Numbered from the stretch's first letter, positions 41,422-52,520 are shown. The stretch: DNA of 64,000 bases from a bacterium (GCA_035528375.1 DATKYS010000031.1:31034-95033); one strand, 5' to 3'. A program made the numbers and translations. The notes: a model not told the origin generated them from the sequence alone.

Positions 41422-41450
41422 TTTACATACGAATATGGGCATGGTACAAT
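41422..41450 (+). promoter_or_regulatory. Promoter of the DsrE-TusA-Hdr operon
   Basis: TTTACA (41422-41427), 17-base spacer, TACAAT (41445-41450) with an extended TGG: the best promoter in the window. A start near 41457 leaves a leader of about 130 bases with no obvious riboswitch. Confidence 0.8.
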
Positions 41451-41588
41451 GAACCTGCTGACGAGAGTTAATCCCGTTAGTCTTTCCAAATTTCGTTCTC
41501 CTTAATACAGCGGGTTTATCTTTTGTCCGGGTACGTGCGCAATCACGTGTTCCTTTGTCGTATGCCGTCAACTCACGGGAGGTTGTGA

Positions 41589-41945
41589 ATGGCTAAGATG
41601 CTGATTTTTTGCGGGTCCGACGACCCCCAGAAGGCGTTCCCCCCGTTCATGCTGGGCTCGGGCGCCCTGGCCATGGAGATGGAACTGACCCTGTTCTTCA
41701 CCATGAGCGGCCTGAACATCATCCGTAAGGGCGGTGCGGAGAAGATCAAGCTCTCGGGTGCGCCCAAGACGCTGCTCGAGTTCATCAAGGTGCTGCAGGA
41801 CGGCGGCGCCAAGTTCATCGCCTGCTCGGCGGCCTTCCCCATCGTCGGCGTCACCAAAGACGACTTCATCGAAGGCGTCGAGTTCGGCGGCGTGGCGACC
41901 TTCGTCAGCGATGCCGAGGAAGCGGACGTCGTCCTCACGTTCTAA
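41589..41945 (+). CDS. DsrE/DsrE2-family sulfur-relay protein
   Basis: The 118-residue protein is of the DsrE-like fold: LIFCGSDDPQKAFPPFMLG at the start, METELTLFFTM-type strand near 30-38, and KFIACSAAFPIVGV with the conserved Cys at about residue 78. The C-terminal GVEFGGVATFVSDAEEADVVLTF is typical. DsrE-type proteins carry sulfane sulfur on Cys and hand it to TusA or take it from rhodanese. It is first in the operon, 46 bases before tusA. GGGAGG precedes the ATG. Confidence 0.9.
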   Translation: MAKMLIFCGSDDPQKAFPPFMLGSGALAMEMELTLFFTMSGLNIIRKGGAEKIKLSGAPKTLLEFIKVLQDGGAKFIACSAAFPIVGVTKDDFIEGVEFGGVATFVSDAEEADVVLTF

Positions 41946-41991
41946 ACCCCACTACCCGAGGTCGGCGATTCACCCTTTGGCAAGGAGATTT

Positions 41992-42246
41992 ATGGATACC
42001 GGCGAGCTCAAGAACCTGAAAGTTGATAAAGAGGTTGACGCGCGCGGAACCGCGTGCCCGGGGCCGCTTTTAGAAGCCAAGCGGGCCATCCCCTCGGTGC
42101 CCATGGGGGGCGTGATGGAGGTTCTTTCGTCCGATGAGAGCACCAATAGTGACCTCCCGCTCTGGGCAAAGAAAGTAGGTCACGAGTACCTGGGGACCGT
42201 TGAGGATGCCGGTTTCTGGCGCATCTTCGTCCGTCGGGGTAAGTAG
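41992..42246 (+). CDS. TusA/SirA-family sulfur carrier
   Basis: This 84-residue protein has the family core VDARGTACPGPLLEAKRAI with the sulfur-carrying Cys in the CPxP motif (about residue 24), followed by the VLSSDESTNSDLPLWAKKVGHE segment of the two-layer fold. AAGGAG sets the ATG. TusA moves persulfide sulfur for tRNA thiolation, molybdopterin, or, in sulfur oxidisers, to Dsr or Hdr-like complexes. The operon points to the last use. The stop overlaps the next start by one base. Confidence 0.93.
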   Translation: MDTGELKNLKVDKEVDARGTACPGPLLEAKRAIPSVPMGGVMEVLSSDESTNSDLPLWAKKVGHEYLGTVEDAGFWRIFVRRGK

Positions 42247-42662
42247 TGACCGCTGAGGAAGCTAAAAACGGCGCAGGACCGCGGATTCTGGTCTTCTCCA
42301 CCGTCAACATCTCCGACCCGGGAATAGACCTGGCGGGCGGCTCCCACATGCACTACCCCGCCGAGGTGGCGGTGCTCAACGTCCCCTGCTCCAGCGGCAT
42401 CCGGCCGGACTGGGTGCTTTTCGCCGTCGAGACGGGTTTCGACGGCGTTTTCATCGCCGCCGACGGGACGGACTGCACCTTCGTCGCCGATTGCACCAAC
42501 CGCACGGCCAAGGTCTTTACCGAGGCCCAGGAGCTCCTCAAGGGGAAGGGGTACGACCCCCGGCGCCTGAAGATGGCGGCTATCTGTAGTGTCTGCGCCG
42601 AGTCCTTCGTCTCGCACATCGAGAACTTTTCCAAGACCCTGAACGCCCTGGAAAGCGGATAG
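42246..42662 (+). CDS. MvhD-like hydrogenase/Hdr iron-sulfur subunit with altered Cys set
   Basis: The 138-residue protein aligns with MvhD, the [2Fe-2S] subunit that links hydrogenase or dehydrogenase to HdrA: ISDPGIDLAGGSHMHYPAEVAVLNVPCSSGIRPDWVLFAVETGFDGVFIAA (cited by landmarks at about 22-72), then AKVFTEAQELLKGKGYDPRRLKMAAICSVCAESFVSHIENF. The usual N-terminal Cys pair is missing (FSTVNISD). Cys remain at VPCSS, DGTDC, ADC, and AICSVC. The cluster may be ligated differently or lost. GTG start overlaps the tusA stop, so translation is coupled. Confidence 0.8.
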   Translation: MTAEEAKNGAGPRILVFSTVNISDPGIDLAGGSHMHYPAEVAVLNVPCSSGIRPDWVLFAVETGFDGVFIAADGTDCTFVADCTNRTAKVFTEAQELLKGKGYDPRRLKMAAICSVCAESFVSHIENFSKTLNALESG

Positions 42663-42670
42663 AAAATCTG

Positions 42671-45388
42671 ATGGATTACGACGTTCTAATCGTCGGCGCG
42701 GGTATCGCCGGGATGGAATCCGCCTTGACCCTGGGGGATATGGGCTACCGGGTGCTCGTGGTGGAGAAGGAGTCCAGCATCGGCGGGAAGATGGTCCTTC
42801 TCAGCAAGGTTTTCCCCACCCTGGACTGCGCGAGTTGTATCTCCACGCCCAAGATGGCCGCCACGGCGCACCACCCCAACGTCACCCTGGCCACGTACAG
42901 CCGGGTCGAGGAGATAGTTCCCTCCGGCGACGGTCGCTTCCTGGCCCGTCTCTACCACAAGTCCACCTTCGTGGACCAGGACGCCTGCACCGGTTGCGGT
43001 GAATGCGCGTCGGTTTGTACGGTTTCCATTTCGGACGAGTTCAACTTCGGCCTGGCGCCCCGGCGGGCGGCCTACATCCCCTATCCCCAGGCGGTGCCGA
43101 AGAAGGCCGTCATAGACCGCCGCGGGCTCTCGCCGTGCACCTACATCTGCCCCGCGGGGGTCAAGGCACACGGCTACGTTTCGCTGGTCCGTGCCGGGAG
43201 ATACGACGAAGCCTTCCATCTGCACATGGAGGACGCTCCGCTGCCGGGAAGCCTTTCCCGCGCCTGCTACTCGCCCTGTGAGACCGCGTGCTCCCGCGGC
43301 GGGTACGAGGGCCCGGTCCCCATCCGGGCCATCAAGCGCTTCATGGTGGACCGCTATTACGCCGCCCACCCGGAGCCGGAGTACGGGCCGCCGGAGGAGA
43401 TGCGGAAGGAAAAGGTGGCGGTTATCGGTTCCGGTCCGGCCGGGCTCACCGCGGCGTACCACCTGGCACGGGCCGGGTTCCGCGTCACCATCTTCGAGGC
43501 CGAGGAGCAGACCGGCGGGATGCTCCGTTACGCCATCCCCACCTACCGGCTGTCCAAGGAGGTGCTGGACCGGGACATCAAGAACATCACCGCCCTGGGT
43601 GTGGAAATTCTGACCGACCACCGCGTGGATTCCCCGGTGTCCTTGAAGAACGAGGGGTACGACGCCGTGTTCGTAGCCGTGGGTGCCGGTACGCCGCAGA
43701 TGATAGGCATCGAGGGGGAGGAGTTCATCAATGTCCTGGACTGCATGACGTTCCTGCGCCAGGCGGCCTCCGGCGAACGTCCGGAGGTGGGGCGTCAGGT
43801 CGTCGTCGTCGGCGGCGGCAATGTGGCGATGGACGTGGCCCGGACGGCGCTGCGTCTGGGGGCGGTCCAGGTGTCCACGGTCTGCCTGGAGCCCCGCGAG
43901 AAGATGCCGGCCCACTCCTGGGAGGTTTCCGAGGCGGAGGCCGACGGCGTCAAGGTCTACCATTCCACGGCGATCAACCGCGTCGTCACCCTGGAAAAAG
44001 GCGGCCTGGGGCTGGAATGCCTCAAGGTGGACTCCATCCAGTTCAATCCCCGGGGGGGCGTGGCCGGGTACACCACCGACGAAAATCAAAAAACCGTGAT
44101 CCCCACAGACATGGCGGTGCTGGCGGTCCTTTCCGTCGGGCTGCTCCCGAACACGACGCCCTTCGCTGGGGAGCTGGTTCTGAACCCCGACAAGACGGTC
44201 CGGGTGAACCGCCGCACCCTCCAGACGGGCGAGCCCTGTATCTTCGCCGGCGGCGACGCGGTCACCGGCCCCTCCATGATCAACGAGGCGATGGGGCAGG
44301 GCAGGAGGGCGGCCTTCTACATCGCCCGCTACCTGCGCGGGGAGTCCCTGGACGTGCCCTTCGACACCCGGCTACCGGTGGTGGAGAGCTCCGTGGTGAT
44401 GCGCCGCACGGCGGGCGTCTCCCGGCGGGACCCGGTTCTCGATCCCGAGCTGGACGCCCGAGAACGCATCAGGAGTTTCGACGAGTTCCAGTTTACCTTC
44501 ACCGAGGAGCAGGCCCGGTACAGCGCCAACCGTTGTCTGGACTGCGGCGGTTGCAGCGAGTGCCGGGAGTGCGTCGAGGCCTGCCCCGCCGACGCCGTGG
44601 ACCTGTCCCGTCAGGGAAGGCTGGAGACCCTCGAGGTGGGCTCGGTCATCGTTTCCACCGGCTTTAACCTCTACGACCCCCATCGTAAGCTCACCTACGG
44701 CTTCGGGAAACACCCGAACGTCATCACCGCCATGCAGATGGACCGCCTGCTTTCACCCACCCGCCCCTACAACCACGTGATCCGACCCTCCGACGGCAAG
44801 CAGCCCGACAACATCGCCTTCGTGATGTGCACCGGCTCGCGGGACCGCCAGGATGGCACGCCGCTGTGCTCCCGTGTCTGCTGCATGTACTCGCTCAAGC
44901 AGGCCCAGCTCATCATGGGAGCCATCCCCCTGGCCGACGTTACCATCTATTACATAGACATCCGCGCCTTCGGGAAGGGGTACGACGAGTTCTACGAGCA
45001 GGCGCGGGGGATGGGGGTGTACTTCGTCAAGGGCAAGGTCGGTCGCATCGAGCCCCTGGATGGCGGAAACCTGAAGCTTTTCTACGAGGATTTCGCCGGC
45101 GCCGGGGGTACGAAAACGGCGGAGCACGATCTCGTCGTTCTCTCGGTGGGGCTGCTGCCCAACCCCGAGGCGCTGTCCATCTTCAAGGAGGGGAGCCTGG
45201 AGACGGACGACTTCGCCTTCGTCCGGGAGGTGGAGGCGGAGCTGGAGCCCGGTCGAACCAGCATCGAGGGCGTGTATGTGGCCGGCGCCGCTTCGGCGCC
45301 GCGCGACATACCCGACAGCATACTCCACGCCGGCGCGGCATCGGCCCTGGCCGCCGCCCACGTGGAACGGATACGGAAGAAACGATGA
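42671..45388 (+). CDS. HdrA-like flavoprotein with inserted GltD-like module (HdrA1)
   Basis: The 905-residue protein starts with an HdrA FAD site (IVGAGIAGMES, about 7-17) and the DCASCISTPKM Cys segment, then a ferredoxin site CTGCGECASVC at 106-116. Residues about 155-570 are inserted and resemble glutamate synthase small chain/NfnB: CTYICPAGVKAH, CYSPCETAC, a second FAD site (VIGSGPAGLTAAYHL) and an NADPH-type site (VVVGGGNVAMDVARTALRLG). A second Fe-S site follows (CLDCGGCSECRECVEACPADAV), and the HdrA C-terminal half resumes (GFGKHPNVITAMQMDRLL, CTGSRDRQ). It could join NAD(P)H oxidation to Hdr electron flow. Confidence 0.9.
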   Translation: MDYDVLIVGAGIAGMESALTLGDMGYRVLVVEKESSIGGKMVLLSKVFPTLDCASCISTPKMAATAHHPNVTLATYSRVEEIVPSGDGRFLARLYHKSTFVDQDACTGCGECASVCTVSISDEFNFGLAPRRAAYIPYPQAVPKKAVIDRRGLSPCTYICPAGVKAHGYVSLVRAGRYDEAFHLHMEDAPLPGSLSRACYSPCETACSRGGYEGPVPIRAIKRFMVDRYYAAHPEPEYGPPEEMRKEKVAVIGSGPAGLTAAYHLARAGFRVTIFEAEEQTGGMLRYAIPTYRLSKEVLDRDIKNITALGVEILTDHRVDSPVSLKNEGYDAVFVAVGAGTPQMIGIEGEEFINVLDCMTFLRQAASGERPEVGRQVVVVGGGNVAMDVARTALRLGAVQVSTVCLEPREKMPAHSWEVSEAEADGVKVYHSTAINRVVTLEKGGLGLECLKVDSIQFNPRGGVAGYTTDENQKTVIPTDMAVLAVLSVGLLPNTTPFAGELVLNPDKTVRVNRRTLQTGEPCIFAGGDAVTGPSMINEAMGQGRRAAFYIARYLRGESLDVPFDTRLPVVESSVVMRRTAGVSRRDPVLDPELDARERIRSFDEFQFTFTEEQARYSANRCLDCGGCSECRECVEACPADAVDLSRQGRLETLEVGSVIVSTGFNLYDPHRKLTYGFGKHPNVITAMQMDRLLSPTRPYNHVIRPSDGKQPDNIAFVMCTGSRDRQDGTPLCSRVCCMYSLKQAQLIMGAIPLADVTIYYIDIRAFGKGYDEFYEQARGMGVYFVKGKVGRIEPLDGGNLKLFYEDFAGAGGTKTAEHDLVVLSVGLLPNPEALSIFKEGSLETDDFAFVREVEAELEPGRTSIEGVYVAGAASAPRDIPDSILHAGAASALAAAHVERIRKKR

Positions 45389-47106
45389 GCCCGAAAGAGA
45401 GAAGGATCGGCGTTTACGTCTGCTACTGCGGGGGCAACATCTCCGACTACGTGGACGTGGAGAAGGTCCGCCGGGCCGTGGAGGGTGAGCCCGGGGTTGC
45501 GGTCGCCCGAACCCACATGTTCACCTGCTCCGACGCCGCCCAACAGGAGATAATCGAGGATATAAAGAACGAGAAGCTCGACGGCCTGGTGATCGCCTCC
45601 TGCTCGCCCAAGTTGCACACCTACACCTTCCAGGGCATGGCCCGGCGCGCGGGGCTCAACCCCTACTGCTACACACAGGTCAACCTGCGGGAGCAGGACT
45701 CCTGGGTCCACCGCGGCGACCGCGAGGCGGCCACGGAAAAGGGCATCCGGCTGGTCCGCGCCGGAATCGCCCGCACCCTCCACAGCCGACCCCTGGAAAC
45801 CCTGCGCATCGTGACGCGGCCCCGAGTCCTGGTGGTAGGGGCCGGGGTGGCGGGTCTGCGCGCGGCGACGCTTCTGGCCGACCTGGGGCTCGAGGTGTTC
45901 CTCGTCGAGCGCGAGCGGGAGCCGGGGGGCTGGACCGCCCGCTGGGGGGTCATGTCCCCCAACGACCGGGACGGCCGAGAGCTCATCGCGGAGCTGGTGG
46001 ACGGCGTGAAAAAGCGGGAGAACGTGACCCTCTTCACCGACGCCGAGCTGATCGAGAAGGGCGGCACCCTGGGGGATTTCGCGGTCAAGGTGCGCGCCGG
46101 CGGGGAGACGTTGTCTCTCGAGGTCGGGGCCATCATCGTAACGACCGGGTTCGACCCCTACCCGCCGCGCGATGGCGAATTCGGGTACGGCTCGCCCGGG
46201 GTGGTCACCCTGCCGGAGCTGGAGGAGCGACTGGCCGATCCGACGGCGGAGATAACCGCCGGGGACGTCGTCTTCATCCACTGTGTCGGGAGTCGGCAGA
46301 AGGCCTCCGAGGACCTGCCGAACCCCCACACCTATTGCTCGCGTTATTGTTGCACCGCGGCGGTCCACACCTCGTTGAAACTGGCCGAGCGGAAGCCCGG
46401 AATCCACCGCTACCACCTCTTCCGCGACATGCGCACCTACGGTTGGTACGAGACCCTGTACGAAGAGGCCCGGCGGCAGGGGGTCGTCTTCCTCCGCTAC
46501 GACGACGCCGAGCCGCCGATGGTGGAGCCCGCCGGCGACCGGCTGCGGGTGAGGGTCCGGGACCAGCTCACCGGGAACGAGGAGCTCGAGTTGGGCGCCG
46601 ACCTGGTGGTGCTGGTCACCGGGATGGTACCGCGCGCCAACGACGGGCTGGTCGGTACACTCAAGCTCCCCGTGGGCCGCGAGGGCTTCTTCAACGAGAT
46701 ACACCCCAAACTGCGCCCGGTGGAGACGCTGGTGGACGGCGTCTTCATCGCCGGGACCGCGCAGGGGCCGAAGAATCTGCCGGAGAGCACCGCCTCCTCC
46801 CTGGCGGCGGTGTCCAAGGCCGGCGGATTGTTGATGAAGGGCTACGTGGACCTCGAGCCACTGGTGGCGGTGGTGGACGCCGAGAAGTGCACGTGGTGCG
46901 GCAAGTGCGCCGAGGTGTGTCCCTACGGGGCCATTGATCGGATAACCTGCGAGGGCCGTGAGGTCGCCCACGTCATCGCGGCGTTGTGCAAGGGCGGCGG
47001 TCCCTGCGTGCCCGTCTGCCCCGAGGGCGCCATAGACATCGAGGGCTTCACCGACCGCCAGATTCGGGCGTCCATCGAGGCTCTGGTCCGGGAGGTCGTC
47101 GGGTGA
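45385..47106 (+). CDS. HdrA-like iron-sulfur flavoprotein (HdrA2)
   Basis: The 573-residue protein is a more typical HdrA: N-terminal VYVCYCGGNISDYVDVEKV and ASCSPKLHTYTFQGM Cys region, NLREQDSWVH, an FAD site VLVVGAGVAGLRAATLLADLG (about 151-171, cited as landmark), FIHCVGSRQ with CSRYCC, and two C-terminal [4Fe-4S] motifs (CTWCGKCAEVCPYGAI and CKGGGPCVPVCPEGAI). HdrA bears the FAD that in methanogens bifurcates electrons. ATG overlaps the HdrA1 stop (ATGA), so the two HdrA proteins are made together and may pair. Confidence 0.93.
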   Translation: MSPKERRIGVYVCYCGGNISDYVDVEKVRRAVEGEPGVAVARTHMFTCSDAAQQEIIEDIKNEKLDGLVIASCSPKLHTYTFQGMARRAGLNPYCYTQVNLREQDSWVHRGDREAATEKGIRLVRAGIARTLHSRPLETLRIVTRPRVLVVGAGVAGLRAATLLADLGLEVFLVEREREPGGWTARWGVMSPNDRDGRELIAELVDGVKKRENVTLFTDAELIEKGGTLGDFAVKVRAGGETLSLEVGAIIVTTGFDPYPPRDGEFGYGSPGVVTLPELEERLADPTAEITAGDVVFIHCVGSRQKASEDLPNPHTYCSRYCCTAAVHTSLKLAERKPGIHRYHLFRDMRTYGWYETLYEEARRQGVVFLRYDDAEPPMVEPAGDRLRVRVRDQLTGNEELELGADLVVLVTGMVPRANDGLVGTLKLPVGREGFFNEIHPKLRPVETLVDGVFIAGTAQGPKNLPESTASSLAAVSKAGGLLMKGYVDLEPLVAVVDAEKCTWCGKCAEVCPYGAIDRITCEGREVAHVIAALCKGGGPCVPVCPEGAIDIEGFTDRQIRASIEALVREVVG

Positions 47107-47360
47107 GCGACCGTATCACGCGGAATCCAGCCGAGGTCATGCGCGACGAGATGGCCATCAGGGACCGCATCCTCGAGATACTCTCGGCGGAGCCGCTCAC
47201 CATCCCTGAAATCGCCGGTAAGCTGGGTTACCCAACCCATGAGGTGGTTCGCTGGGTGATGGCGATGTGGAGCTACAAGCTCGTCGAGGAGACCGGAAAG
47301 GCGGGCCAGGACGGTTATTACCGGTACCGGGTGAAGGTCAAGCCGGAGAGCGGGGGGTAG
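47103..47360 (+). CDS. Small winged-helix protein
   Basis: The 85-residue protein begins at a GTG overlapping the HdrA2 stop (GTGA). The middle reads RDRILEILSAEPLTIPEIAGKLGYPTHEVVRWV, an ArsR/MarR-like helix-turn-helix, with wing residues after it (YYRYRVKVK). Similar small winged-helix proteins occur inside hdr clusters of some anaerobes. It may be a regulator or a structural linker. No partner operator is recognised. Confidence 0.8.
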   Translation: MSDRITRNPAEVMRDEMAIRDRILEILSAEPLTIPEIAGKLGYPTHEVVRWVMAMWSYKLVEETGKAGQDGYYRYRVKVKPESGG

Positions 47361-47440
47361 CTCTCCACCGTGATTTTAGGGTGGGCGGGCCGCGGGGGCG
47401 GTTTACCGAGTTTCTCTGCGGTCGAAAGTGAGAGGGCGGC

Positions 47441-47749
47441 ATGGCAAGAGTCAGCGCGGAGTTCATCGAAGAGGTCCGGGCAGCCGACTTCAACGCCGGG
47501 GACTGCATGAACTGCGGGATCTGCACCTCGGTGTGTCCCATCGGCCTGGAGCTTCTCCCCCGTGCGATTTTCCGTTACGTCGTCGTCGGCCTCGAGTCCA
47601 AAGTGATCGAGAACGCCGAGACCATCTTTAGCTGCCTTCTGTGCCGGATGTGCGAGGAAAACTGCCCGGCCGAGGTCCACATCACCGAGAACGTCAAGAC
47701 CCTGCGCGCCTACATCAACCGGAAGGTCTTCAAGCTCACGAGGAACTGA
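47441..47749 (+). CDS. HdrC-like 4Fe-4S protein
   Basis: The 102-residue protein has two ferredoxin motifs, CMNCGICTSVCPIGLEL (about 22-38) and CLLCRMCEENCPAEV (about 65-79), joined by helices. This is the HdrC layout. In Hdr complexes HdrC carries electrons from HdrA to HdrB. A short gap of 80 bases separates it from the winged-helix gene, and it ends two bases before hdrB, so HdrC and HdrB are a unit. Confidence 0.92.
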   Translation: MARVSAEFIEEVRAADFNAGDCMNCGICTSVCPIGLELLPRAIFRYVVVGLESKVIENAETIFSCLLCRMCEENCPAEVHITENVKTLRAYINRKVFKLTRN

Positions 47750-47751
47750 CC

Positions 47752-48720
47752 ATGGCGCTGCCCACGGGTGCGATAATCGGTATTTTGGTGGACAACCTCC
47801 GCCTGAGGAAGAGCGTCATCCCGCTGTCGAAGCGGAAGATGACCGGTTGGGCGGAGGGTCTGGAGCTTCCCCGGGGCGGCGAGACGGTGCTCTACACCGG
47901 CCTGATGTACCAGCTCATGCCGTCCATCGTGGCCATGGCTAACCTGATGGGTCGGTTCGAAAACTCACCGATCCGCCACCTCATGGGCCTCGGTCGGTTG
48001 GCCAACAAGGTCGTCAACCTGTCCTTCTTCATGGCCCGCAGCCGACCCGAAATACGCCGGGCCTACGATGTGCGGTTGCGCGCGATTGCGGAGCTCCTGC
48101 TGGAATCGGGAGTCGAGTTCGGCTACCTCGCCGACGAGGAGCTCTACTCCGGGGCGCTCGTTTACGACAACGGCATGATGGAGGTCTTCCGGCGCCACGC
48201 CAGGCGCGTCCGCGACGCGCTCAAACGCCGCGGCGTCCGTCGGGTCATCACCGTGGACCCGCACACGCTGAACATGTTCCGTGACGTGTACCCGAAGCTC
48301 ATCGAGGGCTTCGACATCGGGGCCGAGAGCTACCTCGAGGTGCTCGCCCGGCGCGGGATGGAGACGAACGGGGCGACGGGCAAAACGGTCGTCATTCACG
48401 ACTCGTGCGTTTACGCCCGGTACGAGGACGTGCTCGAGCAGCCCCGGGCGCTGTTGAGGAGCACCGGCGCCGAAGTGCGCGAGCCGGATTATTCCCGCAC
48501 CATCACCCTCTGCTGCGGCGGGCCCATCGAATCCCTCTTCCCGTCGAGGTCCAAGGAGGTCGCCCGGGAGCGGATCGGTCAGTTGGCGGCGTGCGGGTCG
48601 GACGTGGCCGTCATGTGCCCGATCTGCCTCTTCAACCTCACCGAGGCCGCCGAGACCACCGGGGCCGACGTCCGCGTCCGCGACATCTGCGAGTACCTGA
48701 GCGAGGCCCGCCCGTCGTAA
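47752..48720 (+). CDS. HdrB-like protein with one CCG domain
   Basis: The 322-residue protein has the C-terminal CCG half of HdrB: HDSCVYARYEDVLEQPR, LCCGGPIESLFP, and AVMCPICLFNL. These Cys ligate the unusual cluster that in HdrB cleaves or forms disulfides. The N-terminal half lacks a matching first Cys-rich domain: it has a hydrophobic TGLMYQLMPSIVAMANLM instead. It may thus hold a single cluster. It closes the operon. No convincing terminator lies within 50 bases, but a hairpin-forming repeat at 48784 may serve. Confidence 0.88.
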   Translation: MALPTGAIIGILVDNLRLRKSVIPLSKRKMTGWAEGLELPRGGETVLYTGLMYQLMPSIVAMANLMGRFENSPIRHLMGLGRLANKVVNLSFFMARSRPEIRRAYDVRLRAIAELLLESGVEFGYLADEELYSGALVYDNGMMEVFRRHARRVRDALKRRGVRRVITVDPHTLNMFRDVYPKLIEGFDIGAESYLEVLARRGMETNGATGKTVVIHDSCVYARYEDVLEQPRALLRSTGAEVREPDYSRTITLCCGGPIESLFPSRSKEVARERIGQLAACGSDVAVMCPICLFNLTEAAETTGADVRVRDICEYLSEARPS

Positions 48721-48778: not shown

Positions 48779-49182
48779 TAGGGCGGGGATTCCAATCCCC
48801 GCCGCTTTTTTAATACAGCCCTCGTTCCCGAGCTGCAATGATGTAGGGCGGCCCCGTGGGATGAATCCCCTGCGGGTCGCCGCGTTTTCTGTATTCCCAA
48901 CCCCGACCCTCACCCTAGCCCTCTCCCTGGGAGGGAGAGGGGATAACTGCACCCCCCTCCCTAACCCGTAGGCGAGCCTCCCCCCAGAGGGGGGAGGGGA
49001 AACGCGGGCGACCGTGGAGGACTCGTCCTACCGGTCGCCCCTACGGGTCGGGTTTGCTGAATATTGACGTAGGGGCGGGTGTCCTGACCCGCCCGCGGGC
49101 CGACCTGAAAGACGCGCCGTCGGTCGGCCCCTACGTCCGGTGTTCGTTGGGCGTAGGGGTGTATCCACACCCGCACGTTTAT
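48779..49182. repeat. Large dispersed-repeat cluster between converging hdrB and ispH
   Basis: Members in order: GGCGGGGAT/ATCCCCGCC hairpin followed by six Ts (48784-48815, terminator-like for the Hdr operon); a GTAGGGCGGCCCC element (48842); CCCTCACCCTAGCCCTCTCCC with GGGAGAGGGG (48909-48941); a CCTCCCCCC/GGGGGGAGGGG element (48978-48999); a GGGCGACC/GGTCGCCCCTAC 3' half (49005-49045); a full GTAGGGG...CCCCTAC element (49071-49135); and a degenerate hairpin (49154-49178). No gene is seen in the 480-base gap. Confidence 0.85.
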
Positions 49183-49200: not shown

Positions 49201-50055
49201 TTAAAAACTCCGCAGGCGCTCGACGACCTCCTCGATTATCCAGTCCGGGGTGCTGGCGCCGGCGGTGACCCCGACCCGCTCCATCCCGGCGAACCACTCC
49301 GGCTCGAGCTCTTCCGCCGTCTCGATGTGCCACGCCTTGCTTCCCCTCTCGCGGCAGCGCTCGTAGAGGCGGGTGGTGTTGGCCGAGTTGCGTCCGCCGA
49401 TGACGACCATGCCGTCCACCGTGTCTAAAAGCTCGAGCATGGCGGCCTGGCGCCGGGCGGTGGCGTCGCAGATGGTGTTGTGGGCCTTCAGCTCGTCGGT
49501 AATCTTCAACAGCTCGCCCACGAGCCGGACGTAATCCTCCTCGAGTTGCGTGGTCTGGGCCACGACGCCTATTCTCTGCCCGCGCTTCAGCCGGGCCACG
49601 TCGGCGGTGGACTGGACCACCACGGCCCCCTCGGCGCCCTCGCGGCGTCCCGAGTCGGCCCAGGCGACGAGAGCGGCGACCTCGGGGTGCTCCGGCTCGC
49701 CGATGACGACCACCCGGTATCCCTCGGCGGCGAGGCCCTTCGCCAGTTTCTGCGCCCGCTGGACCAGGGGGCAGGTGGCGTCCACGACCTCGAATCCACG
49801 GTCCCGCAGTTTTTTTAAAACTTCGGGCGGGACGCCGTGGCTGCGGATGAGCACCGTCCCGACCCGTGCGGCGTCGAGGTCCTCGATGACCCCGAGTCCC
49901 GCTTCGGCCAGCCGGGCCACCATCTGCGGGTTGTGGATTATCGGTCCCAGGCTGGACACGCCTCCGGGGTGGGTCTGGGTGGCCTCGAAGGCCACCTGGC
50001 AGGCGCGCTTCACCCCGTAGCAGAATCCGGCGGCCCGGGCGAGGATGACCTCCAC
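49201..50055 (-). CDS. ispH: 4-hydroxy-3-methylbut-2-enyl diphosphate reductase
   Basis: IspH is the last enzyme of the MEP isoprenoid pathway. The 284-residue protein has its three cluster Cys in AAGFCYGVKRA, VVDATCPLV and NTICDATARRQ. Other marks are LGPIIHNPQMV, RSHGVPPEV, GEPEHPEVAAL, QTTQLEEDY and GVTAGASTPDWII. It begins at a GTG two bases after the radical SAM stop and is last in a four-gene minus operon. No other MEP gene is in the window. Confidence 0.97.
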   Translation of the reverse strand: MEVILARAAGFCYGVKRACQVAFEATQTHPGGVSSLGPIIHNPQMVARLAEAGLGVIEDLDAARVGTVLIRSHGVPPEVLKKLRDRGFEVVDATCPLVQRAQKLAKGLAAEGYRVVVIGEPEHPEVAALVAWADSGRREGAEGAVVVQSTADVARLKRGQRIGVVAQTTQLEEDYVRLVGELLKITDELKAHNTICDATARRQAAMLELLDTVDGMVVIGGRNSANTTRLYERCRERGSKAWHIETAEELEPEWFAGMERVGVTAGASTPDWIIEEVVERLRSF

Positions 50056-50056
50056 G

Positions 50057-51004
50057 CTAAACGATCCTTCGGAGGGGGTAGGTGTAGCCGTCGCGGAGCT
50101 TCTCGCGGGCGTCGAGGTGGCGCCGGAGGAGCTGGCCGCAGTTCGAGCCGATGCGGTCCTCCTCCCGCTCCCCGATGCTCAGAAGCACCCGGTAGCCGGC
50201 CTCCTCCAGGCGGTCGAGAATCTCGTACCGCTTCCCCGGCTCGTCCGGCTCGATGTAGGAGGCGAGGCCGTGCCGCCGCGCGCCGTAGGTCGGGTTGAGC
50301 GGCGTGAATTTTAAGAGGAAAAGCTCCGGGTCGAAGTGGTCCAGCATCACCGCGGGGTCCACGGGCGCGTCCCGGCCGAGGGCGAAGTTGAGGGTCACGC
50401 GGCGGTCGCCCTCCCGATGAAACCTTTCGGCGTACCGGGCGATTTCGGAGAACCCCCACTTTTTCACGGGAATCAGCCGGTCGCGCAACGCGGCGTCGGT
50501 GGTGTGGATGGAGAACTGGAGCTGGAAGCGGCCGCCGCCATAGTGCTCGTCCTTGATTTCGGCCAGCCGCTCGAAGAAGTCCCCCGTTCCCCGCGGGGCC
50601 ACGGTGGAGACCGATGGCAGGAGCCCCGGCGCCTCGTACCTCCCCGGCAGTCCGCGCAGCACGTCTAGCACGGCCGGGTTGAGCGCCGGCTCGCCCACGC
50701 GGGCGAACTGGACCTTGAACTTCTCCGCCGGGACCCGCCCGTCGGGAAAACGCCGGAGGACTAGAAAATCAATCTGCGAGAAAATCTCGTCGGCACAGAG
50801 CACCCCCCGGTAATCGCCCCCGGCGTCGCACATCGGGCAGCCCACCGGGCAACCCAGGAGGGTCGAGACCAAGAGAACCCACTTCTGTTCGCGGGGCAGC
50901 GGCGGCTGGACCGATTCCACGAATTCGACGAGCCTTCCTGAGCCCAGGTCCGCCAGAAAGACCCGGGCCACCTCGTCCGATCCGCTGGTGGCGATTATCC
51001 TCAT
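50057..51004 (-). CDS. RlmN-like radical SAM protein
   Basis: The 315-residue protein has the radical SAM site GCPVGCPMCDAG at about 49-60 and RlmN/Cfr-like landmarks in order: GDYRGVLCADEIFSQ, ARVGEPALNPAVL, STVAPRG, QFSIHTTDAALRDRLIPV, LKFTPLNP and IGSNCGQL. The last Cys matches the methyl-carrying Cys of RlmN. It is shorter than RlmN (about 350-380) and lacks its N-terminal helix-hairpin-helix-like domain, so it may modify something other than 23S rRNA A2503 or tRNA. ATG overlaps the FAD oxidoreductase stop (ATGA). Confidence 0.88.
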   Translation of the reverse strand: MRIIATSGSDEVARVFLADLGSGRLVEFVESVQPPLPREQKWVLLVSTLLGCPVGCPMCDAGGDYRGVLCADEIFSQIDFLVLRRFPDGRVPAEKFKVQFARVGEPALNPAVLDVLRGLPGRYEAPGLLPSVSTVAPRGTGDFFERLAEIKDEHYGGGRFQLQFSIHTTDAALRDRLIPVKKWGFSEIARYAERFHREGDRRVTLNFALGRDAPVDPAVMLDHFDPELFLLKFTPLNPTYGARRHGLASYIEPDEPGKRYEILDRLEEAGYRVLLSIGEREEDRIGSNCGQLLRRHLDAREKLRDGYTYPLRRIV

Positions 51005-51879
51005 CGCGATTCGTCCAAATCGAAGGCGATCGTCATCGCCGCCCGGACGCCGTCCCCCACGGCGATGGCCGCCTGGCGGCACCTTCCCCCCGCCGCGTCG
51101 CCGATAACGTGCAGCCCCGCGACCGGCCGCCCGTTTTCATCGGAAAGGTCCGGGGTCAGGAGGCCCAGGTCCGGCTCCCGACCGACGGCCAGGAGTAGGT
51201 GGTCGGCCTCGAGGTCCACCGTCGCGTCCCCCGCGGAGCATTGTACCAGAAGGCGGCCGTCGGCGAAGGCGAGCTTCACCGGGGAGGTTTGGGCGCGGTA
51301 GCTGATCCGGGGCTCCCGGGACGCCCGGCGCTCCAGCAGCGGGAGGCAGCGTGTCCGCTGGCCCCGGTTCAGAATCGTCACGTCGTTGGACTGCGCCAGG
51401 CCCAGGGCGTAATCGAAGGCGGCGTCGCCCGCGCCGATTATCAGAACCTTCCGCCCGGCGAGGCCGCGGAGGGGATAAACCTCGGTGTGGACCCGGTCGG
51501 CGCACTCCGGCGAGACCGGGGGGCCGTCCCAGGGCTTTGGGCGGGTGCCGGTCGCCAGCACCACGTGCGCCGCCTCGTACCCGCCGCCGGTCGTTCGGAG
51601 GCGGAAACCGCCGGCGCGCCTCTCCACCCCGGATACCTCCTCGGAAATCGGGACTATCCCGCCCTCCCCGAGCTGACACAGGAATTTTTCGGCGAGGTCC
51701 GGGCCGGGGATGCCCCCGGGGAAGCCGGCATAGTTCTCCACCCGGTGGGCGTTCCAGAGCAGGCCGCCCGGGCGCCCCCGTTCGAAGAGGAAAAATTCGA
51801 CGCCGTGCCGGGCCAGTTGAATCGCGGCGGCGATCCCCGCCGGCCCGCACCCCACGACGGCCGCCCGAGCGGTTCTCAC
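51001..51879 (-). CDS. Thioredoxin-reductase-like FAD/NAD(P) oxidoreductase lacking CxxC
   Basis: The 292-residue protein has a FAD site AAVVGCGPAGIAAAIQLARHG (landmark at about 6-26), PGGLLWNAHRVENYAGFPGG, a central NAD(P) site VLIIGAGDAAFDYALGLA, and a C-terminal GLHVIGDAAGGRCRQAAIAVGDG. This is the low-molecular-weight thioredoxin reductase fold. The active CxxC between the two sites is absent, so electrons may go to another partner, as in ferredoxin-NADP reductase-like members. GTG start overlaps the isochorismatase stop, and the stop overlaps the radical SAM start. Confidence 0.9.
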   Translation of the reverse strand: MRTARAAVVGCGPAGIAAAIQLARHGVEFFLFERGRPGGLLWNAHRVENYAGFPGGIPGPDLAEKFLCQLGEGGIVPISEEVSGVERRAGGFRLRTTGGGYEAAHVVLATGTRPKPWDGPPVSPECADRVHTEVYPLRGLAGRKVLIIGAGDAAFDYALGLAQSNDVTILNRGQRTRCLPLLERRASREPRISYRAQTSPVKLAFADGRLLVQCSAGDATVDLEADHLLLAVGREPDLGLLTPDLSDENGRPVAGLHVIGDAAGGRCRQAAIAVGDGVRAAMTIAFDLDESR

Positions 51880-52520
51880 GAATCAACCCCCGGCAGTCGA
51901 AGGAGGTCGCACGTCAGCAGCGGAACCGCGAAGCCGTGGGACAGCGTCAGGAGGCTGGCGCGGTGGAGCGCCTCGGTGTAGGTGGCGGTGGCGTCCACGG
52001 GGAGGTATACGTCGAAGCCCCTCACGAAGGCCGAGCGGGCGGTGGTCCCGCAACACAGGTGGGTCATCACCCCGGAGACGACGACGTTGCACACGCCCCG
52101 CTCCCGGAGAATTTTCTCCAGGTCCGTCCCGTAAAAGGCGTCGTACTGGGTTTTTACGATGACAAGTCCCCGCGCGTCCAGCCGGGGGTCCAGCTCACCC
52201 ATCGGGTCGCCGTCCTCGATGAGGTCCCGCCACCAGCGGCCCATCGCGCCCGCATTTTCCCGCGTGTTGGTGTGCCGGGTGAGGACGACGTTTTTGAATG
52301 CGGCGGCCAGGGCGTTTATTTGCGGAATGATGGCCGGGGCGCCGGGGACGAAGGCGTGGGAGCCCTCCTCCAGGAAACAGCGCTGCATGTCGAGAATCAA
52401 AAGGGCGGTCTCGTCGGCCGAAAGTTTTCGGGGGGGCTCCCGCCGGTATCCGTCGGCGGCCCGGAGAAGGGCGGCGGCCCTCTCGGCGATGTTTTTCGGG
52501 GTGAAGTACGGTTCCTTCAT
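51876..52520 (-). CDS. Isochorismatase-family cysteine hydrolase
   Basis: The 214-residue protein has the family catalytic triad: Asp in LLILDMQRCF (about 43), Lys in IVKTQYDAF (about 123), and Cys in GVMTHLCCGTTAR (about 157). Nicotinamidase, N-carbamoylsarcosine amidase and similar amide hydrolases share this fold. Metal-binding His of nicotinamidases is not clearly seen. The N-terminal 35 residues (PYFTPKNIAERAAALLRA) are extra. It heads the four-gene coupled operon leading to ispH. The substrate is unknown. Confidence 0.9.
   Translation of the reverse strand: MKEPYFTPKNIAERAAALLRAADGYRREPPRKLSADETALLILDMQRCFLEEGSHAFVPGAPAIIPQINALAAAFKNVVLTRHTNTRENAGAMGRWWRDLIEDGDPMGELDPRLDARGLVIVKTQYDAFYGTDLEKILRERGVCNVVVSGVMTHLCCGTTARSAFVRGFDVYLPVDATATYTEALHRASLLTLSHGFAVPLLTCDLLRLPGVDS

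Follow-up and report, generated by a model that had tools for sequence, protein, structure and literature searches.

Genes and boundary signals of the locus

We analyzed a 64,000-nucleotide stretch of bacterial DNA (GCA_035528375.1, DATKYS010000031.1:31034-95033; here called the window) from a Coatesbacteria metagenome-assembled genome of 2.63 Mb (144 contigs, 100% complete), and we focus on an operon in which the genes for two sulfur carriers, DsrE and TusA, stand together with those for Hdr-type flavoproteins and their partner subunits. By direct reading of the window, eight consecutive genes lie on the plus strand between 41589 and 48720, separated, in the order from DsrE to HdrB, by gaps of 46, -1, 8, -4, -4, 80, and 2 bases. 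An initial annotation, made from the sequence alone, had described such a run of eight same-strand, partly overlapping genes, and both this reading and Pfam bear it out. The near-consensus promoter that it had placed in front of them is present, with 10 of 12 consensus positions matched, but the region would hold about one equally good site by chance alone, so that the match is weak evidence. This promoter-like site and a terminator-like hairpin flank the eight-gene block, and an Rfam scan of the window gave no match at gathering scores. The features, all on the plus strand, are as follows (aa, amino acids).

41422..41450, +: promoter-like site, TTTACA-17-TACAAT, TG-extended, 10/12 consensus matches
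41589..41945, +: DsrE-family sulfurtransferase, 118 aa, Coates type, with the FIACSA cysteine (Pfam DrsE_2, 1e-23; DsrE, 3e-12)
41992..42246, +: TusA sulfur carrier, 84 aa, CPGP motif (Pfam TusA, E 1.7e-19)
42246..42662, +: MvhD/FlpD-like protein, 138 aa, remodelled cysteine set (Pfam FlpD, 1.6e-25)
42671..45388, +: HdrA1, 905 aa, HdrA FAD domain with an inserted ferredoxin and an NfnB/GltD-like module
45385..47106, +: HdrA2, 573 aa, HdrA N-terminal cluster domain, FAD domain, and C-terminal ferredoxin
47103..47360, +: small winged-helix-like (wHTH) protein, 85 aa (Pfam PF0610-like_N, below cut-off)
47441..47749, +: HdrC-like dicluster ferredoxin, 102 aa, eight cluster cysteines (TIGR03290, 2e-14, below cut-off)
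47752..48720, +: HdrB-like CCG protein, 322 aa, single motif C219-C254C255-C289xxC292 (Pfam CCG, 7e-11)
48782..48803, +: terminator-like hairpin, followed by GCTTTTTT

The operon recurs in at least three phyla

The gene-neighborhood comparison across genomes for which the initial annotation had called found the same block in at least three phyla. The operon is not a chance assembly: the same gene set occupies about 20 loci. A scan based on the HdrB alignment located it in Coatesbacteria (14 genomes sampled in the phylum), in the LCP-89/Hatepunaea phylum, and in Desulfobacterota, including NaphS2. In a profile search at an E value of ≤1e-40, the LCP-89 phylum gave matches in 6 of 39 genomes and the NaphS2 phylum in 23 of 297 sampled, 15 of the latter at ≤1e-100. 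The conserved order is TusA-MvhD-HdrA1-HdrA2-wHTH-HdrC-HdrB; DsrE lies at the 3' end, but at the 5' end in Coatesbacteria and at L086, a locus of the LCP-89 phylum. Pairwise distances among the seven shared subunits correlate (rho, 0.71 to 0.87; 0 of 999 permutations as high), a pattern to which species relatedness contributes.

One copy of the operon (L067:6910-13639) lies in a genome that we infer to be that of Dissulfurimicrobium hydrothermale Sh68, a cultured, obligate sulfur disproportionator. The genome paper for this species lists a DsrE (LGS26_05760) and a TusA (LGS26_05795) as being of unknown function; with locus tags rising in steps of five, these two would bound a block of eight genes, in keeping with the operon. 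We found no description of this operon in the openly accessible literature.

Sulfur carriers linked to the operon

TusA and DsrE lie within the block at nearly every locus whose contig extends far enough, and alignment shows their reactive-cysteine motifs retained across the operon family, with CPGP invariant in 22/22 aligned operon TusA proteins. The DsrE of the window matches Protein Data Bank entry 3mc3 at an E value of 2e-9. Only a single TusA is encoded in the window's genome, the one in the operon. Within the window's family, four of seven genomes carry the operon (the window's own, G000, together with G008, G009, and G011, the last of them placed in the window's genus). We detected TusA in three of these four, always inside the operon, the G011 contig ending before the TusA position, and no TusA was found in the three operon-free genomes, which are 96 to 99% complete.

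The best-known role of Escherichia coli TusA is in tRNA thiolation, and Hdr complexes that contain MvhD can use other thiols. Both points would suit an electron-bifurcating Hdr complex with a different thiol substrate, next to which TusA and DsrE served the thiolation of tRNA or of a cofactor. However, a TusA that is restricted to the operon in the window's family and absent from near-complete relatives would be odd for a housekeeping protein, the linkage to DsrE is kept as well, and the operon contains no hydrogenase or formate dehydrogenase. We therefore regard this explanation as improbable.

Electron-transfer subunits

Pfam identifies two different HdrA-type flavoproteins in the operon, as initially annotated. 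In HdrA1, the NfnB/GltD-like module (Fer4_20 plus Pyr_redox_2, approximately residues 150 to 560) is placed between the two [4Fe-4S] motifs of the inserted ferredoxin; the structure model of this protein is of middling quality (predicted local distance difference test [pLDDT] score, 73). HdrA2 is without an inserted ferredoxin, and Gly replaces one ligand of its last cluster. Coatesbacteria and LCP-89 have the complete HdrA1 module; at four loci (L067, L070, L075, and L078), most of the pyridine-nucleotide half is gone, and the short HdrA1 of Desulfobacterota, at about 433 aa the size of QmoA, has no such module. At three loci of the LCP-89 phylum, HdrA1 is split: a HycB-like ferredoxin is fused to its second half, and a NuoG-like gene stands ahead of that half (assigned by Pfam in L036 and L085 and by eye in L086); L036 has an additional NuoF-like gene with an FMN/NADH-binding domain before that second half.

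L036:239-4272, L085:2-2059, and L086:3444-7695: split HdrA1 with Nuo/HycB-like modules

The presence of NAD(P)H modules at HdrA1 supports the electron exchange with NAD(P)H that had been proposed at the outset. In DsrL and NfnB, YRR is an NADP(H) motif (PMC7596348). Four relatives of the window's HdrA1 carry YRR (L035, L037, L038, and L039), and the window's protein has CLE at the same site, so that NAD(H) is the likely partner of HdrA1 in the window's genus.

Two other assignments of the initial annotation, a classical MvhD role and a classical HdrB, were not supported. Set against the MvhD structures 5odc_D and 7bkb_F, the MvhD-like protein is missing some of the cysteines, and its family has an invariant IC[ST]VC motif. 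The HdrB-like protein has one CCG motif, invariant in 26/26 sequences; its structure model (pLDDT, 84) has EtfD, LutA, and HdrB as its nearest folds, and its sequence is closer to CCG proteins of the LdhH/EtfD/LutA type than to methanogen HdrB. HdrC retains 8/8 cluster cysteines in 18 aligned members. The position of the wHTH protein is kept across the operon family (alignment of 26), and its identity rests mainly on this conservation.

CCG genes related to the operon HdrB were also seen outside the operon. At L044:56-2627 and L081:4985-7729, they adjoin FAD-linked-oxidase-like genes (by eye, from sequence starts), pairs that suggest where the operon HdrB originated. Six loci with HdrB-like matches (L044 to L046 and L082 to L084, from Thermoplasmata and some Desulfobacterota) had no surrounding Hdr operon.

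To place the two flavoproteins, we built a maximum-likelihood tree from HdrA flavin domains; it took in neither type II Qmo nor sHdrA, and its QmoA and QmoB came from operon-bearing genomes and were named by their position near AprA. HdrA1 (n = 23) and HdrA2 (n = 25) of the operon were each monophyletic with a support of 100, and both fell outside the clades of QmoA (n = 4; support, 100) and QmoB (n = 4; support, 99). This bears on the idea that the operon encodes a Qmo-type or QmoAB-HdrBC electron module serving adenylylsulfate reductase. In Desulfobacterota, the combination of a QmoA-sized HdrA1 and a second HdrA with HdrC and HdrB does resemble QmoAB-HdrBC (PMC10504309). Separation from the QmoA and QmoB that the operon-bearing genomes themselves encode (in a tree without type II Qmo), the lack of an AprA above cut-off in the Coatesbacteria genomes, and the constant presence of TusA and DsrE argue against it, and we consider it very improbable. 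In pairwise scores, the two operon HdrA proteins matched sHdrA (6tjr) at E values of 3.5e-38 and 4.5e-28, against values of about 1e-104 to 1e-112 with methanogen HdrA, itself a longer protein.

The window's genome encodes further large HdrA-type proteins at L128:5332-11220 (G000:C77), one of which has a NuoG-like [2Fe-2S] start. A plasmid search for HdrA relatives returned two remote matches only.

Sulfur metabolism of the host genomes

Of the 26 operon genomes outside Coatesbacteria, 22 have DsrA; DsrC and YedE occur in the majority of the genomes tested for them. The Coatesbacteria genomes G000, G008, and G011 (100%, 70%, and 88% complete, respectively) had no DsrA, DsrC, YedE, or AprA above cut-off. 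Nor does the window's genome encode LbpA: its sole GCV_H protein is GcvH, next to gcvT. Taken together, the conserved linkage, the HdrA trees, and the absence of LbpA and AprA support the initial description of a sulfur-relay-coupled Hdr set apart from sHdr and Qmo. The set is not unique to this genome and belongs to a conserved operon family.

In a further alternative, the operon is an analogue of sHdr that dispenses with LbpA and oxidizes TusA-bound sulfur to sulfite, with NAD+ or some other acceptor taking up the electrons; it would then supply the missing first oxidative step of disproportionators. TusA and DsrE accompany an Hdr core here as they do in sHdr, an obligate disproportionator (D. 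hydrothermale) carries the operon, DsrA in 22/26 of the non-Coatesbacteria genomes would make sulfite usable there, and the NAD(H)-type motif of the window's HdrA1 is of the kind associated with oxidation in DsrL. On the other hand, the second HdrC and HdrB and LbpA are absent, the hosts are mostly sulfate reducers or uncultured, and Coatesbacteria have no AprA, DsrA, or DsrC to accept sulfite, other sulfite-handling enzymes not having been searched for. On balance, we hold this oxidative analogue to be rather unlikely.

In Desulfobacterota, the operon is accompanied by sulfur-trafficking genes, namely, those for rhodaneses, a second TusA, and YedE (close to the operon in L043), as well as by a gene for a sigma-54 activator. 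Upstream of the NaphS2 operon (L041:1809-2483), two short open reading frames look by eye like the small DsrE-like proteins of DsrEFH type II/YTD; neither had a Pfam match. Downstream of the operon in the window (49201-52520, minus strand), we read by eye genes for IspH-like, radical-SAM-like, thioredoxin-reductase-like flavoprotein, and isochorismatase-like proteins, with no sulfur connection seen.

Proposed function

The operon probably encodes a soluble, NAD(P)H-linked, Hdr-type oxidoreductase that acts on TusA-bound sulfane sulfur. In this model, a heterodimer of HdrA1 and HdrA2 would assemble with HdrC, the one-cluster HdrB-like CCG subunit, and the MvhD-like subunit into a soluble cytoplasmic complex, which TusA and DsrE would feed or drain, carrying the sulfane sulfur in the form of a protein persulfide. 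An S-S bond would be formed or cleaved at the CCG cluster of HdrB, and electrons would travel by way of both HdrC clusters to the HdrA flavins and, by the module inserted in HdrA1, to or from NAD(P)H.

For Coatesbacteria, we lean toward reduction of the TusA persulfide to sulfide with reoxidation of NADH, rather than oxidation to sulfite, because no onward Apr or Dsr route was found there, in searches that did not extend to Sat, sulfite dehydrogenases, or other enzymes that handle sulfite. Oxidation is just as likely in disproportionators and in hosts that have Dsr.

Several observations weigh against this model. Work on DsrL ties enzymes of the NAD(H) type to oxidation, contrary to the reductive lean (PMC7596348). 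No YedE-type sulfur importer (Sulf_transp) was found in the Coatesbacteria genomes. The nearest sequence relatives of the CCG subunit are lactate-dehydrogenase and EtfD-type proteins, not HdrB. Finally, most Desulfobacterota members are without the NAD(P)H insert and four are without its NAD(P) half, so that NAD(P)H would not be the partner in every host.

The known routes that join a sulfur carrier to Hdr-type proteins are sHdr with LbpA and DsrC with DsrAB. Tentatively, as a possibility short of probable, the operon might represent a third Hdr-based sulfur pathway, free of LbpA, independent of Dsr, and linked to NAD(P)H, in which several anaerobic phyla oxidize or reduce TusA-bound sulfane sulfur and which would provide the first step of disproportionation. 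If so, anaerobes would have an additional cytoplasmic route for sulfane sulfur that brings its own TusA and DsrE and dispenses with LbpA and, in Coatesbacteria, also with Dsr, and the open first step of sulfur disproportionation would have a named candidate in the culturable D. hydrothermale. For an uncultured phylum, the operon also offers a sulfur metabolism that can be put to the test.

Relation to known systems

The sHdr gene set, hdrC1B1A-hyp-hdrC2B2, contains two HdrC and two HdrB proteins (PMC6067878). The operon shares with it an Hdr-type flavoprotein and CCG core encoded alongside TusA and DsrE carriers. It differs in that the operon and its relatives carry one HdrC and one HdrB, in its two unlike HdrA proteins, MvhD-like subunit, wHTH protein, and NAD(P)H module in HdrA1, and in having no LbpA in the operon or among the proteins of the window's genome, where sHdr has lbpA. 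Membership in sHdr was therefore rejected for want of a second HdrC/HdrB and of LbpA, though TusA and DsrE are present.

With Qmo and the QmoAB-HdrBC layout (described in PMC10504309), the operon has in common two HdrA-type flavoproteins with HdrC/HdrB-like partners and, in Desulfobacterota, the QmoA-sized short HdrA1. Its HdrA pair lies in separate clades, however, TusA and DsrE are constant, and the window's genome has no AprA. Qmo membership was likewise rejected, given four separate clades (support, 99 to 100, in a tree without type II Qmo) and no AprA in G000, G008, or G011.

Homology to the methanogen MvhADG-HdrABC complex (5odc, 9sfi) extends over HdrA, HdrC, and MvhD, with the HdrA domains split over HdrA1 and HdrA2; in contrast to that complex, the operon is without a hydrogenase and has one CCG motif instead of two and altered MvhD cysteines. 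HdrL of Desulfobacterium autotrophicum, a fusion of HdrA and glutamate synthase, and DsrL/NfnB likewise join a GltD/NfnB-like NAD(P)H module to HdrA or to a sulfite reductase system. In the operon HdrA1, too, a GltD-like NAD(P)H module is linked to an HdrA, an architecture resembling that of D. autotrophicum HdrL; unlike in HdrL and DsrL, its module sits inside the ferredoxin domain of HdrA1, and Coatesbacteria have no DsrAB partner. The YTD cluster and DsrEFH type II resemble the operon in using TusA and DsrE for sulfur trafficking in disproportionators and sulfate reducers. They differ from it in that Coatesbacteria have no YedE and in that Hdr subunits take the place of DsrEFH.

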